Shown here piece by piece: positions 10,037 to 36,491 of a stretch of DNA of 36,709 nt (position 1 is the stretch's first letter; each line of letters starts with the position of its first letter). Origin of the DNA: Kiritimatiellia bacterium (GTDB taxonomy: Bacteria > Verrucomicrobiota > Kiritimatiellia > RFP12 > JAAYLN01); contig JAFWPM010000195.1 of assembly GCA_017509565.1 (NCBI GenBank), forward strand, positions 1 through 36,709, written 5' to 3'. The notes beneath the pieces are model-generated. The model was not told where the DNA came from. It saw only the letters and a program-made list of their open reading frames with translations, and did no database searches. Position numbers and translations under genes: made by a program.

Positions 10037-10060
10037 GCATTTGTCATCCCACGTAATGAT

Positions 10061-10180
10061 CAACGCAGAGGCGCAGAGACGCAGTGGTTTCTGGCATTGT
10101 TTGCCAAAAGTCATGTGCAATCATACCATTCATGATATGGGCAAGTGACGTCAGCGTTCCTATTCTCCGCGACTTTGCGT
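10061..10180. repeat. Dispersed palindromic element, CGCAGAG family, intergenic copy
   Basis: The left arm ACGCAGAGGCGCAGAG (10063-10078) pairs with the right arm CTCCGCGACTTTGCGT (10165-10180) at 13 of 16 positions, with about 85 bases between. The same arm sequences occur in the in-frame element at 28579-28730. The copy is bracketed by two near-identical stretches, ACCAGT(GT)ATTCTAGCATTT (about 10026-10043 and 10199-10216), which contain the two promoters. No gene is visible in the gap 10018-10252 apart from this element and those promoters. Confidence 0.65.
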
Positions 10181-10205
10181 TAAAATACTTGTGGGAAACC
10201 AGTGT

Positions 10206-16355: not shown

Positions 16356-17585
16356 TCAGCGCCGGTGCAAAGCCCGCCAGGCGGTCATGGACGCTCCCGT
16401 CCGCCTGCGGAAAACCTTGCGCAGCTCGACCTGCGAACCGAAGCCGCACATGTCGGATATCGCTCCGATGGACGTGTCGGTCTCGGCGAGAAGCGTGAAG
16501 ACGCGCTCAAGGCGTACTTGCAGTATCTCGTCGTGGGCGGTGTGCCCCATCGCCTCGCGGAACCTGAGGTAGAAGAGACGCTCCGAGACGCGGCTGCGCC
16601 GGACGAGATCGGCAGTCGTGAGGCCATCGCAAGCTTCGCGCCGGATCGTTTCCATGGCCCTGGCGACGAAATGTTCGCTCCGTCCCCGCCCGCGCGTGGA
16701 TTTGCGCCGGTCCACAAGCAGCTGGCCGAAGGTTGCGACGCCACCATGCATCGCGACAGGCGCTTGGGCGGATTCGCGCCTGCGCGGCCCTTCATTGCGG
16801 GCGCAGCCAAACCCTTCGTTCGAGGCGAAGGCGAAGAGCGCTTTCGCCGCGAGGTAGCCGGAAAGCTCGAAGTCTATTTTCACGGATGAGATGTCACGCA
16901 CGATTTGCGCCATCGCCGGCTTGCTGGGTGCGCCGCCGTTGGCGCCGACGAGCGTGGCGTCGTATGGCATGAAACGGTGCGCGGCGCCGAGGGCGAGCGC
17001 GACGTCGGCGGCAATGCCGTCGTTGACGGCGAAGATGGCGCAGCGGCCCGGAAGCGACGCGATCCACGGCCCCAGGCGCTTCCGGAACGCCTCTTCGGTC
17101 CTGTCGCGCCCCGTGTCGAAGACTAGGCATTCCGCGCCAGCCCTGCGGCAGAGAGTCTGGAACGCACCTGACCGCTCCTGCGACCAGCGCTGTCCCGACT
17201 GCCAGTATGGGACGACAGCATAGACTGGCGGCGCCCCATACGAGAGTTCGGCGAACGCAGACTCCGCGATTGCGGTCTCGTCGCACCGGACGAAAGGCTG
17301 CGCCTCTCGCCATTGCGCCGTGTCGGGGACGTCGATGAATACCGTGGGAGTCCCGGCGAAGAGACGGGGCGAAAGGCGCGGAGTCTCGGCGACGCAGCCG
17401 ACGGGACGGAGGCTGCGCAGCTTCGACGGCACATCCTCGGGACTGCAGTCGGCGGCGCCGAGAGCCACCACTTCGAAGCCGAGCGCCCCTGCATGGCGGC
17501 GGATGCCGTCCAGCCGGCGGCGGAACATCTCCGCCTTGGCGCCGAGACTGAAGTTCACGTAGAGGATTGCCGCCCTTGCCTTCAT
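16356..17585 (-). CDS. XylR-like transcriptional regulator (PBP1 domain plus AraC helix-turn-helix)
   Basis: A 409-residue cytoplasmic regulator. The N-terminal 280 residues are a periplasmic-binding-protein-type sugar sensor (AILYVNFSLGAKAEMFRRRLDGIRRHAG; VFIDVPD; CAIFAVNDGIAADVALALGA). It ends in the linker motif QLLVDRRKSTRGRGR, then a two-part AraC domain (LTTADLVRRSRVSERLFYLRFREAMGHTAHDEI ... SIGAISDMCGFGSQVELRKVFRRRTGASMTAWR). Such proteins usually activate adjacent sugar-use genes when a ligand is bound. The start MKARAAILY aligns with its paralogs at 22610-23845 and 35168-36403. A TATATA box plus the palindrome AGGGAGACACCCT lies 34-55 bases upstream. Downstream on the same strand come the beta-strand-repeat protein and the oxidoreductase, its likely targets. 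Confidence 0.92.
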   Translation of the reverse strand: MKARAAILYVNFSLGAKAEMFRRRLDGIRRHAGALGFEVVALGAADCSPEDVPSKLRSLRPVGCVAETPRLSPRLFAGTPTVFIDVPDTAQWREAQPFVRCDETAIAESAFAELSYGAPPVYAVVPYWQSGQRWSQERSGAFQTLCRRAGAECLVFDTGRDRTEEAFRKRLGPWIASLPGRCAIFAVNDGIAADVALALGAAHRFMPYDATLVGANGGAPSKPAMAQIVRDISSVKIDFELSGYLAAKALFAFASNEGFGCARNEGPRRRESAQAPVAMHGGVATFGQLLVDRRKSTRGRGRSEHFVARAMETIRREACDGLTTADLVRRSRVSERLFYLRFREAMGHTAHDEILQVRLERVFTLLAETDTSIGAISDMCGFGSQVELRKVFRRRTGASMTAWRALHRR

Positions 17586-19654: not shown

Positions 19655-19745
19655 GCGACATTCGACAGCCGACAGCCCGGCGACGATCGACACCCAACTG
19701 CCGCAAGTCGTTTCCGGCTGTCGGATGCCGAATGTCGAATGTCGC
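19655..19745. repeat. Dispersed inverted repeat, GCGACATTCGA family
   Basis: The arms GCGACATTCGA...CCGACAGCC (19655-19677) and GGCTGTCGG...TCGAATGTCGC (19716-19745) pair over 20 positions, with a 7-base bulge in the right arm. It lies between the end of the gene at 19764 and the GH5 start and could act as a terminator-like hairpin. The rest of the gap 19562-19763 shows no gene. Confidence 0.6.
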
Positions 19746-22609: not shown

Positions 22610-23845
22610 CTATCGGAAATTCCGTCCGCGCCACGCCCCCATGGACATCCCGAAGCGGGAGCGGAATACGGCGTCGAGCGCGCTGTAGCAGCCGAAACCG
22701 CAGAAGTCGTGGACGATGGTGACTGGCGTGTCGGTCTGCGCAAGGAGCGCGCAGGCGCTTTCCAGCCTGACTGAGAGGATTTCCTCGTTTGCCGTGTGCC
22801 CCATCGCCTCGCGGAAACGCAGGTCGAAGGTGCGGCGCGGGACGATCCGCCCCAGCTCCTTCTCCAGACGGTCGATGACACCGGTGATCGTGATGCCGTT
22901 GCAAGCCTCGGCACGGATGATTTCCACCGCCCGGAGTATCCACGGCTCGTGCCGCCCGCGACCTGATGTCGATTTGCGGCGCGTGACCAGCAGCGGGCCG
23001 ATGGGAATTGCCGATTTGCCGATAGCATTCGATCGCACTCGACGGCAATCAGTTCGCTTGCATTCAACGGAACTCGATTGAAATCGGCGGCTTCTCGATG
23101 CCATAATCTCCACAAGCGCCCGAGCGGCGACAAAACCTATCCGCTCGAAATCGAGCTGGATCGAAGTCAAGGGAATTGGGGCATTTTCGCAGATTTTGGA
23201 TATGTTGTCCGTGGAACAGATCGAAATATCCTTCGGAATGTGGCGGTGCGCGGCGATTGCCGCGCGTTCCACGGCCTCGGCAGTGGCGTCGCTGGCGGTG
23301 AAAATCGCGGTATGGCCTGGCAAATCGGCGACCCAGTCTGACAACCGCTCGAAACGGCTCTCCTCCGACTCCGGCCAGTTCGCCGGAAAAACTTCACATT
23401 CCGCCCCCTCCTTCCTGCAGCACCGCATGAAGGCGTCGACTCGCATTCGCGACCACGGGTGCGGGACGATAAACCCGACGGCGGCGAAGGCGGCGGGCTT
23501 CCATCGCGAAAGTTCGCGAAACGCGGCATTGGCCACCGCCGCGTCGTCGATCACGACATCGGGGGCCTTGCCCGCGATTGCCTCCGCCGGGTATTCGATA
23601 TAGGAGGCGGGGATGGCACCGAGGACGTCTGGCATGTAATCGACCGTGCGACCGGATCCCTCGACGATCACGCCGCCCGGACGGTAGTCGGCGATAAACG
23701 ACCGGACATCCCTTTGGCGCAATTCGTCGCGTGTGACCATGGCGACCTCCATTCCGCTCAATCCGGCGTAGCGCCGTATTCCGGCCAGCTTCAGAATCTG
23801 GCTCGGATTGTTCGGCACCATGTCGATGTAGAGAATGTCCGCCAT
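22610..23845 (-). CDS. XylR-like transcriptional regulator (PBP1 domain plus AraC helix-turn-helix)
   Basis: A 411-residue paralog of the regulator at 16356. It opens MADILYIDMVPNNPSQILKL and carries GIRRYAG, YIEYPAEAI, HTAIFTASDATAEAVERAAI and DISICSTDN in the sugar-sensor part. After the motif GPLLVTRRKSTSGRGR comes the AraC domain (GITITGVIDRLEKELGRIVP ... FDLRFREAMGHTANEEILSVRL ... DTPVTIVHDFCGFGCYSALD). The start at 23845 fits the family; a longer in-frame extension to 24124 has no such support. The linker (residues about 254-285) is encoded by a repeat-rich stretch (23010-23088). A promoter (23962-23990) and a palindrome (23897-23911) lie in its leader. Likely targets are the beta-strand-repeat gene and GH5 directly downstream. 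Confidence 0.92.
   Translation of the reverse strand: MADILYIDMVPNNPSQILKLAGIRRYAGLSGMEVAMVTRDELRQRDVRSFIADYRPGGVIVEGSGRTVDYMPDVLGAIPASYIEYPAEAIAGKAPDVVIDDAAVANAAFRELSRWKPAAFAAVGFIVPHPWSRMRVDAFMRCCRKEGAECEVFPANWPESEESRFERLSDWVADLPGHTAIFTASDATAEAVERAAIAAHRHIPKDISICSTDNISKICENAPIPLTSIQLDFERIGFVAARALVEIMASRSRRFQSSSVECKRTDCRRVRSNAIGKSAIPIGPLLVTRRKSTSGRGRHEPWILRAVEIIRAEACNGITITGVIDRLEKELGRIVPRRTFDLRFREAMGHTANEEILSVRLESACALLAQTDTPVTIVHDFCGFGCYSALDAVFRSRFGMSMGAWRGRNFR
23010..23088. repeat. Inverted and direct repeats inside the linker of a regulator gene
   Basis: GCCGATTT (23010-23017) and AAATCGGC (23081-23088) form perfect 8-bp arms. Between them an 18-base direct repeat, GCATTC-6N-ACTCGA, occurs twice with a 35-base period (23025 and 23060). 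The stretch encodes the Cys/Arg-rich linker between the sensor and AraC domains. Confidence 0.5.
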
Positions 23846-23896
23846 TTCTACAGCGGCTCCATCGCTGGAATGCCGATGAGGGCCGGGAAATCGTGG

Positions 23897-23911
23897 ACTC
23901 CGGTCCGGAGT
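23897..23911. promoter_or_regulatory. 15-bp palindrome in the regulator leader
   Basis: ACTCCGG-T-CCGGAGT is a perfect inverted repeat with a single central base, between the promoter at 23962 and the regulator start at 23845. It may be an autoregulatory operator. Confidence 0.4.
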
Positions 23912-23961
23912 TCTCTGGTTCTGCGTTCTGCCATGTCGCCCCATTGTCGTTTGCGCCTTCA

Positions 23962-23990
23962 ATTCTAGCAAAACGCGGGGCGAAAGCCAA
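23962..23990 (-). promoter_or_regulatory. Promoter TTGGCT-17-TAGAAT of the 22610-23845 regulator
   Basis: Minus strand: TTGGCT (23990-23985), 17 bases, extended -10 TGC-TAGAAT (23967-23962), followed by TGAAG. The same TGCTAGAATTGAAG string is present at the promoter near 26469. The leader is about 110 bases. Confidence 0.65.
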
Positions 23991-24288
23991 GCGCGAAGCG
24001 CAGTTGACAGAGATTCCAGAGGATACACCCTGCTTCCCCCGAAAAGCCTTCTCGCTTGGCCTAATGTCGCGGCGTCGCGGGCGCCCAATCCGCCGCAGGC
24101 GGATGATGTCGCCGCATTTTCCAAGCTCGCCAGTGGTCGCGTGGAAGCGCGACCCTCACAATGCGGCTCGTCCCGCCGGAATATTGCCTCCTAGCGCGCA
24201 AGCGCCTCTAGCAATGATGGCTCCCGGCACAAGCACCCGCACTTATGCACGAAGAGCCTCCTTCACACACCACCACAACCTCACTTCA
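23991..24288. other. Intergenic stretch without a recognisable gene
   Basis: No coding signal is seen. It holds a perfect 7-bp hairpin, GGTCGCG-tggaag-CGCGACC (24135-24154), and a smaller CCGCC-GCA-GGCGG stem near 24087. These look like intergenic repeats or a terminator for the alpha-galactosidase transcript. Confidence 0.5.
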
Positions 24289-27617: not shown

Positions 27618-29915
27618 TTACCTCGGCCGTTCCGCGCAGCCGCGGATGCCTTCCAGCAGCGCCCTCCTGCGAGGGGTGTCGGCGGCGGGCGCGAGGTGCT
27701 GTGCGTCGGGGCCCTCGTGCTCGACGCTCCAGCCTTCCCATTCGCGGAAGGCGTGGTAGGTCCAGTCCCAGCCATATTCCTCGAATATCGCGATGCAGTC
27801 GCGCAGGTATTGGTCCGCCCCCGGCGCCCAGGCGATGGCGCTGAATTCGCCGCAGTAGATTTTCGCGCCGTGGCGGAGCTGGAAGTCGCGCACGGGCCCC
27901 AGCGCCCCTCGCAGGGATTCCGCGTTCCACCCCTTTTCGGCGTTGGGATAGGGATCGGGCGTCTTCCCCTGCTTCCACATCACCCCCTGGTGCGTGAAGC
28001 GCAACGGCACGTACATGTGAACTTCGTAGATGACGTTCGTAAGGTCGAGCGGCGACAGCGTGGCGAAGGCGCTCGGCGAGTCCTGCGAATTGGCTTCGAC
28101 GATGACCGGAACGTCGGGATCGATTTCGCGGATGGCCTCGGCGGCGCGCTTCTGGAGCGTCCAGAAGTCGCATCCCGGCAGGGCCTCGGAGGTCTGCATC
28201 GGCTCGTTCACGAGGTCGTAGCCGTAGATGCCCTCGCGCCCCTTGAAGCGCGCGGCGATGCGCCGCCACGTTTCGACGAAGAAGTCCGCGCATTCGGCGT
28301 CGTGGCACATGCGCAGGTCGTTCGCGGCGTCGCGGTTGCCGGGCGGCGTGTGGAGGTCGAGTACCACCTTCATGCCGCGCGCCGCGGCCTGCGGCAGGAC
28401 AAACGAGTCGAAGTGGTCGAGCTTTTCGGCAAGCCAGCGGCCGTAGGCCTCGAAATCGACCGGGGCGTCCTTTTTCTGCCTGTAGCCCCACATCTGGTAG
28501 CGGAGGAGCGTCGCGCCCCAGGCCTGGAGCGTGTCGAAGTCGGCCTCGGTCATGCGGTGCGGCGACATCACACCCCGGAGATTTTCAACGCAAAGCCGCG
28601 GAGTGGCAGAGCTGTTTTGGACAGGATTGGCAGGATTGGCAGGATTGCCACCCTCACGCAGAGGCGCGGAGGCGCAGAGGTTTTGTTCCCGCCTTTCTCC
28701 GCGTCCCCGCGTCTCTGCGTTAAGATTTCCAGTGTACACGCACCGGTGGGTCTGGTTCGTGACGGGCCAGGGCGGAATCGGTTCGACGAGGCGGAGCGAG
28801 GAAAGGTCGAATTCGGCGTGGCCGCTCGCCTCCTGGAGTCCGAGGACGAGGCGGACCTTGCGGCGCGTGGCGGCGCTGAAGTCGCCGAGGCGGATCGTCT
28901 GCTCCGGGAAGTCGCCGAGACGCGACGCCGTGTTGGGGTAGAACCAGTCGCCGGCGACGGGGTCCTCGTATTCAAACTGGAACTTGAGGCCGTTGTACCA
29001 ATGGAGCGGCTTGCCGATTCCCCTGCCGCTGGCCGTGATCTCCGCGCCGACGGGCCGTCCGTCCCAAGGCGAGAGGTCGATTTCGGCGGAGGCGAGGCCG
29101 CCCTTCGCCGCCTCCTCGCCGGGCGGCACGTCCACCACGAGGCGATCGCCATCGATGCGGGCGTACGGCGTGGTCGTCCAGACAAGCGTCGGCTCCGCGC
29201 CGAGGCGGTCGAGTTCGTCGAAGCCGACGATCGCCATGCCGAGCGATTCGGCGGCAGCGAGGATGGTTTCGAGGTCGGCGCGCGACATGCTCACGCCTTC
29301 GGCTGTTTCGCCGATGCCGTGGGAATACAGGACGAGGACGGCGTTCGACGCGGCGACGCCGGGCACCATGGCGGCGACTTCCGCGCCGCCGCGCCTGTAC
29401 TTCGGACCGACGCCGAGGCCGGGCAGGTAGCGGCGCGACGCCGCTTCGGCGACGGGGAAGGCGCCGGCGAAGTCGCCGCCGCCGCGAAGGCGGTCGAAGT
29501 GGCGCAGGAGAAAGGCGTCCGTCTGCGGCGTGTGGCGGCTCATCGGATAGGCGAAGGAGCGCACGGGGAGGCCGGCCGCGCGGCAGGCCGCGAGCTGCGG
29601 CTCGATCTCGTCGGCGAGGTATCCGTCTTCGCCGAGTTTCGCGACGACATCCGGCGCGACTTGGTGCTTGAGGCCGTGCAGGCCGATGGAATGGCTGGCT
29701 TCGGAGAGTTTGCGCAGCGAGGCGACCGCCCCGTCGTCGATGTCGTGGTAGGCGAAGAAGGTCGCGTGTGCGCCGTGCGCGGCGAAAATCGGCAGGGCCG
29801 CCTCCCAGTCGGGGAAGCGACTGTCGTCGAACGTGAGGCACAGGACGCCATTCGCCGCTGCGGTCGCCGCCACGGCGGAGGAAAGGATCAGTGACATTGC
29901 GTACTTTGCGGACAT
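27618..29915 (-). CDS. Polysaccharide deacetylase - GH5 fusion, interrupted in frame by a palindromic element
   Basis: A 765-residue exported protein (signal peptide to about residue 21). The N-terminal part is a NodB-type deacetylase domain: LTFDDSRFPDW with Asp31, and the zinc motif His80-x3-His84 in IGLHGLKH, then FAYPMSRHTPQ and LVLYSHGIGE. A beta-sandwich of about 130 residues follows (ASAEIDLSPWDGRPVGAEIT ... HAEFDLSSLRLVEP). The rest is a GH5 barrel with acid/base Glu571 (YDLVNEPM) and nucleophile Glu690 (IYCGEFSAI), at normal spacing. Between sandwich and barrel lies a 48-codon low-quality stretch (TRGRGERREQNL ... NPANPANPVQ) encoded by a dispersed palindromic repeat. Joint action on an acetylated beta-mannan or similar polymer is plausible. 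It is transcribed from its own promoter at 29943-29971. Confidence 0.88.
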   Translation of the reverse strand: MSAKYAMSLILSSAVAATAAANGVLCLTFDDSRFPDWEAALPIFAAHGAHATFFAYHDIDDGAVASLRKLSEASHSIGLHGLKHQVAPDVVAKLGEDGYLADEIEPQLAACRAAGLPVRSFAYPMSRHTPQTDAFLLRHFDRLRGGGDFAGAFPVAEAASRRYLPGLGVGPKYRRGGAEVAAMVPGVAASNAVLVLYSHGIGETAEGVSMSRADLETILAAAESLGMAIVGFDELDRLGAEPTLVWTTTPYARIDGDRLVVDVPPGEEAAKGGLASAEIDLSPWDGRPVGAEITASGRGIGKPLHWYNGLKFQFEYEDPVAGDWFYPNTASRLGDFPEQTIRLGDFSAATRRKVRLVLGLQEASGHAEFDLSSLRLVEPIPPWPVTNQTHRCVYTGNLNAETRGRGERREQNLCASAPLREGGNPANPANPVQNSSATPRLCVENLRGVMSPHRMTEADFDTLQAWGATLLRYQMWGYRQKKDAPVDFEAYGRWLAEKLDHFDSFVLPQAAARGMKVVLDLHTPPGNRDAANDLRMCHDAECADFFVETWRRIAARFKGREGIYGYDLVNEPMQTSEALPGCDFWTLQKRAAEAIREIDPDVPVIVEANSQDSPSAFATLSPLDLTNVIYEVHMYVPLRFTHQGVMWKQGKTPDPYPNAEKGWNAESLRGALGPVRDFQLRHGAKIYCGEFSAIAWAPGADQYLRDCIAIFEEYGWDWTYHAFREWEGWSVEHEGPDAQHLAPAADTPRRRALLEGIRGCAERPR
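28579..28730. repeat. Palindromic element inserted in frame in the deacetylase-GH5 gene
   Basis: The direct repeats AGATTTTC (28579-28586) and AGATTTCC (28723-28730) lie exactly 144 bases apart (48 codons). Between them are the outer arms ACGCAAAGCCGCGGAG and, at the far end, CTCTGCGTTAAG; a 24-bp hairpin (28656-28679 with 28697-28720, 20 of 24 paired); and a tandem GGCAGGATTG run (about 28621-28648). Removing 144 bases fuses YTGN to LRGV and restores a normal GH5 opening. The arms match the intergenic element at 10061-10180. Confidence 0.78.
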
Positions 29916-35167: not shown

Positions 35168-36403
35168 TCACCGTCTGCGCCGCTTGCGCCATTCGCGCAT
35201 GGACATCCCGGTGCGCCGGCGGAAGAGGTGGCGCAGCTCGATTTCCGAGCCGAAGCCGCACATCCCGGCAATCGCGTCGATGGCCGTGTCGGTTCCGGAA
35301 AGCAGTGCCTCGACCTGCTGGAAACGCACATGCTGGATTTCGTCGAGGATGCTGTGCCCCGTCGCCTCGCGAAAGCGCTTTTCGAGGAGCCAGCGCGAGC
35401 AGCGGAAGCGCTTCGCGAGGGCGGCGGCGGTGAGGCCGTCGCAGGCCTCGCGCCGGATCGCCTCCACGGCGTCCAGCACCCATGGCTCGCGCCGCCCGCG
35501 GCCGCCGGTGCTTCGGCGCCGGATGACAAGGAGCGGGCCGTATGAAATTGTAACGGTTGAGTTTTTTGCCACAAAGGGCACAGAGTTCCCAATATCTTTT
35601 TCCTTCTTTGTGTCCTTTGTGGCTAAAGATTGTTCCGCAGCCTTCTTTGCGCCCATCATCTCCCCGAGCAATCTCGCGGCGAGGAATCCCCCGCTCTCGA
35701 AATCCATCGGGATGCTGGAAAGGGATGGCGAAACCGTTTCGCAGAGCGCGGAGTCGTTGTCGACGCCGACGAGCGTAAGATCGCGCGGGATGGAACGACC
35801 TGCGGCCTTCGCCGCGCGGGCGATGGAGGCCGCGGTGGCGTCGTTCACGGCGAAAACGGCGGTACGCGGCGGCAGCTCCGCAATCCATTCCCGGAGACGC
35901 GCATCCGGCTCGTCCCCTCCCCTGCCCCAATCCACGAGACAGAGGCAGCGCCTCCGCTCCTTTCGGCAAAGCGCACGGAAGGCCGCGACGCGGGCGTTCG
36001 ACCAAATCCCGTCCGGCATCGCGGAATCTGATAGCCCCACGGCCGCGAAGCCGTCGGGGTTCCCGGACGAAAGCTCCCGGAACGCGGCGGCGGCGACGCT
36101 GCCGTTGTCCACGGCCACGCGCGCGATCCGCCGCCCGCGCGGAACGGACAGGCAGTTCATGAACACCGCCGGGACGCGCCCGAAGGCGGCCGGGGGAAGG
36201 TCCGGCGGCCCGTTGGAGCATTCCACGATGCAGCCGACCGGCCGTTTCTCCGCCAGAATCACCGACAGGCCCTTCCCGTGCGCGACGCGGTAGTTGACCG
36301 ACTCCGCCGTCCAGCCGCGCATCGCCGCGTAGCGGGAAATGCCGGAAAAGACCGCATCGTGGACGGCGATGCCGCTGATGTGTCCCAGATACAATATGTT
36401 CAA
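35168..36403 (-). CDS. XylR-like transcriptional regulator with repeat-encoded linker
   Basis: A 411-residue regulator if read from the TTG at 36403 (NILYLGHISGIAVHDAVFSG), which fits the paralogs in length and start. In-frame ATGs at 36448 and 36466 would add a tail encoded by the TATATA/palindrome region, so they are less likely, though not excluded. The sensor domain has VFMNCLSVPRG, TAVFAVNDATAASIARAAKA and LTLVGVDNDSALCETVSPSL. The AraC domain follows GPLLVIRRRSTGGRGRREPW (LTAAALAKRFRCSRWLLEKRFREATGHSI ... DAIAGMCGFGSEIELRHLFRRRTGMSM). The linker SLATKDTKKEKDIGNSVPFVAKNS comes from a palindromic element (35567-35623). The next genes on the strand are the ATPase and the beta-strand-repeat operon. 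Confidence 0.88.
   Translation of the reverse strand: MNILYLGHISGIAVHDAVFSGISRYAAMRGWTAESVNYRVAHGKGLSVILAEKRPVGCIVECSNGPPDLPPAAFGRVPAVFMNCLSVPRGRRIARVAVDNGSVAAAAFRELSSGNPDGFAAVGLSDSAMPDGIWSNARVAAFRALCRKERRRCLCLVDWGRGGDEPDARLREWIAELPPRTAVFAVNDATAASIARAAKAAGRSIPRDLTLVGVDNDSALCETVSPSLSSIPMDFESGGFLAARLLGEMMGAKKAAEQSLATKDTKKEKDIGNSVPFVAKNSTVTISYGPLLVIRRRSTGGRGRREPWVLDAVEAIRREACDGLTAAALAKRFRCSRWLLEKRFREATGHSILDEIQHVRFQQVEALLSGTDTAIDAIAGMCGFGSEIELRHLFRRRTGMSMREWRKRRRR
35567..35623. repeat. In-frame palindromic element in a regulator gene, CACAAAG family
   Basis: GCCACAAAGGGCACAGAG (35568-35585) pairs with CTTTGTGTCCTTTGTGGC (35606-35623) at 16 of 18 positions around a 20-base AT-rich loop. It is read in frame as the linker between sensor and DNA-binding domains. 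Its composition differs from the flanking GC-rich codons. Confidence 0.75.
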
Positions 36404-36430
36404 GCGCCCCGGCGCAGAATTCGCCTTGTT

Positions 36431-36453
36431 AAGGGAGACACCCTTCATATATA
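36431..36453 (-). promoter_or_regulatory. TATATA box with AAGGGAGACACCCTT palindrome
   Basis: Minus strand TATATATG followed by AAGGGTGTCTCCCTT (36445-36431), 28 bases before the likely start at 36403. Matches 17619-17640, before the regulator at 17585, in sequence and position. Confidence 0.5.
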
Positions 36454-36491
36454 TGGTGTAGGCCATGGTTTCGCTTTGCCTCCCCTGTTTT

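Follow-up and report, generated by a model that had tools for sequence, protein, structure and literature searches.

The Rickettsia palindromic elements and their like (RPE/WPE; Ogata et al., 2000, 2005) are palindromes of ~100–150 bp that lie between genes and in frame within genes, with a large share of copies being genic (PMC2229807, PMC10969869). In Rickettsia, orthologs have been reported with RPEs of different groups close to one site, and whether these represent separate arrivals or one diverged insert was left open (PMC3767692). In the REP/REPIN and RAYT systems, repeats are tagged with GTAG or CGTC (PMC3733652, PMC2817692). MITEs such as Correia, ERIC and RUP are short and non-coding, possess inverted arms, and occasionally create in-frame fusions (PMC2229807). 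Lastly, the TAACTGA heptamers of Beggiatoaceae are short tandem repeats that were described as intergenic (PMC4679880).

We compared these systems with a palindromic block in a 36,709-nt stretch of DNA (hereafter the window) from a Kiritimatiellia bacterium. Its genome consists of 3.2 Mb in 314 contigs, and is a rumen Kiritimatiellae bin judging by its named relatives. The features of the host gene, which encodes a 765-aa product, are as follows.

27618..29915, minus strand: host gene, polysaccharide deacetylase + beta-sandwich + GH5 (Pfam, AlphaFold2, PDB fold match)
aa 23–132: N-terminal polysaccharide deacetylase domain (Pfam PF01522, E 8.5e-10)
about aa 245–381: beta-sandwich
aa 452–721: GH5 barrel (Pfam PF00150, E 1e-25)
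28584..28727, minus strand: replaceable linker cassette of 48 codons (aa 397–444), boundaries from 86 junction comparisons
28656..28720, minus strand: module 1, hairpin of 8-nt CTCYGCGN units (family A8), from its 24-nt arms and genome-wide copies
28588..28650, minus strand: module 2, array of 9-nt AATCCTGNC units (family B9), then TCCAAAA and a third A8 arm
28579..28586: direct repeat AGATTTYC, left copy, alleged target duplication (not supported)
28723..28730: direct repeat AGATTTYC, right copy

The original prediction had described a two-domain enzyme gene; the beta-sandwich and the GH5 barrel are indeed present, but a deacetylase domain makes the gene three-domain. The closest PDB fold of the protein is TtEnd5A (8ag9, 42% identity). 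In the AlphaFold2 model, the domains mostly have a pLDDT above 80, whereas the linker falls below 50 at model residues 169–212 (aa 400–443). The linker cassette is thus predicted to be a disordered spacer between confidently modeled domains, in line with the earlier description of 48 low-complexity residues exactly between the sandwich and the GH5 barrel. These 48 extra codons are in frame and stop-free, and the predicted tryptic peptides of the insert include EGGNPANPANPVQNSSATPR.

All parts that had been described for 28579–28730 (nested arms, tandem units, direct repeats 144 nt apart, and a preserved frame) were found. The 24-nt arms (28656–28679 and 28697–28720) are 83% complementary across a 17-nt loop, the outer arms (28587–28611 and 28697–28721) are 76% complementary, and at 28622–28650 lies a CAGGATTGGCA array of three units at 9-nt spacing, the unit of which can also be given as CAGGATTGG. 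The direct repeats, AGATTTTCA and AGATTTCCA, start at 28579 and 28723. The window holds eight matches to the A8 pattern (0.55 expected) and two to the B9 pattern (0.00 expected), while an Rfam search of the window found no family. In the RNA sense, the block folds into one long hairpin at −66.1 kcal/mol (shuffles, −46.7 ± 3.6; z = −5.4). Two high-copy repeat families, A8 (the arms) and B9 (the array), make up this composite block. At 144 nt with nested arms, it falls within the size range of RPE palindromes, and its terminal inverted repeats (the outer arms) are reminiscent of MITEs. Unlike MITEs, however, the block has arms made of imperfect tandem units, and neither TA ends nor a target duplication was found consistently.

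Partial matches to the block occur 62 times in its own genome, the block itself counted, hence at ~60 other places, the B9-A8 order is repeated at seven loci (L003, L004, L005, L006, L009, L021 and L029), and the full B9-TCCAAAA-A8 order at several loci besides the block. The repeat census covered 409 kb of the 3.2 Mb plus pattern searches. Inverted repeats with a score ≥ 16 numbered 11 against one in simulation, and a de novo search uncovered further families of like style, GTTGAAA and CGACATT among them. Among 145 relatives of the same order, an A8 triple-unit pattern (one mismatch allowed) was present in 91, with 0 to 102 copies per genome, whereas the reversed control gave almost no matches; across the phylum, counting exact matches only, it was present in 46 of 388 genomes. 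The A8, B9 and C8 strings were not found in the literature searched, a scope that left out many subscription papers. Two further repeats lie elsewhere in the window.

19656..19744: palindrome of 7-nt CGACANN units (family D7) with 22-nt arms, upstream of a gene
10041..10205: intergenic ~165-bp element, A8 arms and a conserved loop (TTTCTGGCATTGTTTGCAAAAAGTCATGTGCAATCATCCCATTCAGG...)

D7 also serves as the GH5 linker cassette of paralog C266 (L079/L093). Copies of the ~165-bp element, 78–88% identical, lie at L008, L011, L022, L024, L030, L101 and L104; the L024 copy holds a nested B9 hairpin. We also noted an ISAs1-like transposase gene (PF13808 + PF01609; 10446–11630, minus strand) ~250 bp from the window copy, and no inverted ends shared between the two were found. 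About a third of sampled copies (13 of 42) of two families, TTTGTGAACAAT and GCGGGCATCYYGCCCGC, are in frame within coding-like ORFs, these counts being approximate as ORFs were called stop-to-stop with GC3 filters rather than by a gene finder; of ten repeat clusters counted as "coding", two are located ahead of a gene and two match through a single core.

The original likening to RPEs thus holds at the level of organization: dispersed palindromic families with in-frame genic copies, alongside intergenic ones, operate alike in another lineage. Here, the RPE features were taken from reviews, and the likeness is one of description and not of RPE sequence. By contrast, the phylum is different, at least 11 sequence-unrelated families occupy one site, and several of these are built from 7–9-nt units. 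Moreover, the CGTC end tag (PMC3733652) is absent from A8/B9, and the block instead ends in TTAACGC...GCGTTGA. Since end tag and lineage differ, we do not class the block as an RPE, a separation that is itself by description. The repeats also resemble REP/REPIN in their high-copy hairpins, composite mosaics and some genic copies, and families P and K, the former seen in other orthologs, have a GTAG or CGTC adjoining the hairpin; the GTAG tag is, however, missing from A8/B9. The STRR of cyanobacteria are short tandemly repeated heptamers. The repeats described here likewise include scattered arrays with a few units of 7 nt each, but they form inverted pairs and enter genes.

To define the junction between the sandwich and the GH5 barrel, we extracted it from orthologs and paralogs and compared 86 distinct junctions. 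All 86 have lengths that are multiples of three, are stop-free and contain no frameshift, which bears out the expectation that copies keep the frame. This regularity most simply reflects selection on a working protein, and in-frame occupancy is expected from survivorship and hence gives no evidence of targeting. A translational bypass element or an intein was rejected, given that every junction is frame-constrained and that no intein domain was found. In outgroups (e.g. Victivallis) linkers are short, mostly 6–24 nt and typically 18 nt, i.e. ~6 residues of the type YPDRVRNRPxLRGVM. The junction YTGNLRGV, which was obtained by deleting the block and taken for the expected GH5 opening, is therefore not the ancestral one. 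In the genera around the window, by contrast, many linkers are 39–243 nt long and derive from at least 11 repeat families, including A8, B9, C8, D7, TTGTGAACAAT (V), GACAAGC, GAGACAA, CGTCATTGC (K) and the GTAG-tagged P. When the linker is left out of tree building, the resulting tree demands at least 34 switches between linker classes. Long linkers appear repeatedly, in two groups of genera, always at the same position, and many orthologs keep short ones (some of 12–30 nt).

The turnover is clearest among three sister genomes (G018, G022 and G050) that are mostly 95–98% identical to the genome of the window (G000) and syntenic over much of it; all close genomes are fragmented metagenome bins with some N-masked stretches. 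In all four, the GH5 alignment is interrupted at one and the same point. The intervening block measures 153–163 nt in the window, 137–157 nt in G018, and 48–58 nt in both G022 and G050, and consists of the A8/B9 composite, the V family, and a short CCGCGATTCATCGCGG palindrome, respectively. A single insertion into an otherwise fixed site, as originally supposed, does not account for this: G018 shows what the original prediction had itself named as a refutation, lacking the arms yet having an unrelated linker of equal length (138 nt), although that linker is itself another palindromic repeat family (V). Elsewhere, the linker of GH5 paralog C248 is 130 versus 76 nt between genomes, that of another GH5 paralog 167 versus 8 nt, and the insert in a PFL-like enzyme 156 versus 246 nt. 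Turnover is not universal, however, as the C248 element is kept at 97% identity in three species (no synonymous and two to three non-synonymous changes, too few to test selection), so an insertion can persist as well as be exchanged.

The cassettes tend to follow the repertoire of the host. TTTGTGAACAAT, the family of the G018 cassette at the GH5 site, has 75 copies in G018, 34 in G022, 18 in G050 and nine in G000, while GCGGGCATCYYGCCCGC, which supplies the regulator cassette in G022 and G050, has 91 copies in G022, 22 in G018, 16 in G050 and two in G000. The correspondence is imperfect, however, since A8 is also found in the sisters.

We considered whether one ancient insertion per gene had diverged beyond recognition, a possibility not settled for RPE-4/6/7 in Rickettsia. 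The long linkers do all lie at the same place, but flanks that are mostly 95–98% identical enclose unrelated cassettes, which have their matches in different dispersed families, and many orthologs and the outgroups are short-linkered. Near-identical flanks around unrelated inserts indicate separate arrivals in this lineage and, in contrast to the case in PMC3767692, exclude one diverged insert; the ancient-insertion account is contradicted here and barely conceivable as an explanation. An artefact of assembling or binning repeats is almost as hard to credit: the data are fragmented and partly masked, but independent assemblies agree in placing both flanks within a single gene and in frame every time, and the near-identical C248 element comes from three separate bins. 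In an observation of another kind, G000 is labelled as belonging to another family than G018, G022 and G050, whose contigs its own match at 95–98%, and shows mostly lower similarity (72–96%) to its labelled genus mate G001; the classification or binning of G000 may be off. G018 also carries, on C136, a 267-bp insert relative to G022 and G050 that is MITE-like; its inverted ends are of the GGTGTGACCAAAGCC type and its direct repeat is CATGGTCGG.

Next, we asked whether other genes contain the same kind of insert. The window encodes a regulator with a repeat-derived linker.

35168..36466, minus strand: LacI-type/AraC regulator with an in-frame repeat in its linker (PF13377 aa 153–280, HTH_18 aa 350–429)
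35543..35654, minus strand: regulator linker block, C8 palindrome of 8-nt CACAAAGN units at 35568–35627

Between PF13377 and HTH_18, the window has a CACAAAG palindrome and G022 and G050 a GCGGGCATCTTGCCCGC array; the linkers are 112 nt in the window, 223 in G050 and 352 in G022 (differences of 111 and 240, multiples of three), with closely similar flanks. CACAAAG/A8 sequence also lies between the N-terminal and concanavalin-like domains of an alpha-L-rhamnosidase in L091. Separately, a 1140-codon frame at L103:380–3799 (minus strand) with beta-lactamase-like, PFL-like and glycine radical domains has a GTTGAAA repeat, with DAGTFQPFNFSTFQLF as its in-frame reading, that G022 and G001 conserve, and two more LacI-AraC regulators (22610–24124 and 16356–17585, both minus strand) have linkers, SSSVECKRTDCRRVRSNA and SNEGFGCARNEGPRRR, that look repeat-derived.

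These genes bear on the possibility that gene conversion among the several GH5 paralogs of each genome shuffles ready-made linkers and that new repeat insertions are rare. Some paralog cassettes do have common edges (TACACTGGAARTCTTAACGC; TATCGCGC.CCGGTGGAAATG), namely window C199 with paralog C248, G018:C154 with G050:C22, and G022:C80 with G050:C139, suggesting some exchange between paralogs. However, on either side of the C199 linker the vast majority of informative sites are ortholog-type, which leaves no long conversion tract reaching the flanking sequence, and conversion as the whole cause is rejected. Furthermore, paralog cassettes match over short parts only, unrelated genes (the regulator and the PFL-like enzyme) behave likewise, and the G050 regulator cassette matches another place in G022, at 94% over 185 nt, better than it does any paralog. 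Judged from these sequences, exchange between paralogs may explain part of the replacement; shuffling as the prevailing process is unlikely.

A dedicated linker diversification or a structured-mRNA function, in which the hairpin or the peptide is selected (for pausing, spacing or regulated translation), would fit the strong RNA folds of the GH5 cassettes (z of −5.4, −3.5 and −3.1) and the recurrence of long linkers in two genus groups. Against this, family, length and fold vary freely, orthologs with 12–30 nt manage, the fold of the regulator cassette is not significant (z = −1.6), and the same repeats are found between genes. We regard such a function as very unlikely.

The original prediction further proposed a visible 8-bp target duplication and RAYT or another transposase as the driver. 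In the version considered here, the element would travel as a REPIN or MITE, duplicating its target and mobilized by a transposase of the RAYT/IS200 type. Neither part found support. The AGATTTYC pair is marginal (chance p 0.008–0.033) and is absent from paralog C248, although an element of the same kind sits there. A clean filled/empty pair, in which G018 only has a 69-nt palindrome in the gene beside C248, shows no target duplication, which speaks against that part of the proposal. A 14-nt direct repeat, GTATTCTAGCATTT, does flank the ~165-bp element at 10041–10205 but none of its seven other copies (1/8), so duplication is possible for some family. Y1_Tnp genes exist in G000 (seven) and in 106 of 145 relatives, and hairpins suit Y1 substrates. 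Y1 chemistry leaves no target duplication, and in this respect the clean 69-nt site agrees with a Y1 enzyme. Family P (GTAGCCGAARCCGC..) even starts with GTAG, the tag that marks REPs (PMC3733652). Nevertheless, none of 20 Y1 loci in six genomes has any of the repeat families within 1.2 kb, a further difference from REPs; A8/B9 modules lack both end tags; G004 and G126 are array-rich without a Y1 gene; 12 genomes with at least four Y1 genes have no A8 arrays; and the abundances of Y1 genes and arrays correlate weakly (rho 0.26 per Mb). Mobilization by such a transposase is accordingly improbable.

Instead, we think it likely that selfish, high-copy palindromic repeats repeatedly colonize permissive linkers, that selection keeps the in-frame survivors, and that the 144-nt block is one occupant of a fast-turnover site. 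The families are dispersed, they occupy genes in frame, one site is repeatedly refilled in each of several genes, and the repertoires are host-biased. These genomes harbor many unrelated palindromic families, several built of 7-, 8- or 9-nt units, at up to ~100 copies. In the scheme that we propose, copies would arrive throughout the genome, and most in-gene arrivals would be lost. Survivors would be those that are in frame, stop-free and placed where a surface loop or a linker between domains tolerates them, and their translation would yield a disordered spacer. Further insertions, together with deletions and exchanges, would then swap the content, giving near-identical orthologs with unrelated cassettes drawn mostly from the repertoire of their own genome. 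From sequence comparison, we infer that the insert is probably translated and nearly neutral, and that a transposition or template-switching step is involved. A bolder version, that one machinery makes all these unrelated 7–9-nt-unit palindromes, inserts them without target duplication, and is in this lineage the main source of interdomain linkers, which are continually rewritten from the current repertoire, appears doubtful.

Palindromic inserts that keep the frame have mostly been regarded as peculiar to Rickettsia and Wolbachia; here they occur in Kiritimatiellae, with many families and turnover at one site. This provides a natural replicated experiment on selfish DNA as a source of protein segments, on the tolerance of linkers, and on the survival rate of random in-frame inserts, and the finding points to a mobilizing machinery for common, scarcely described environmental repeats.
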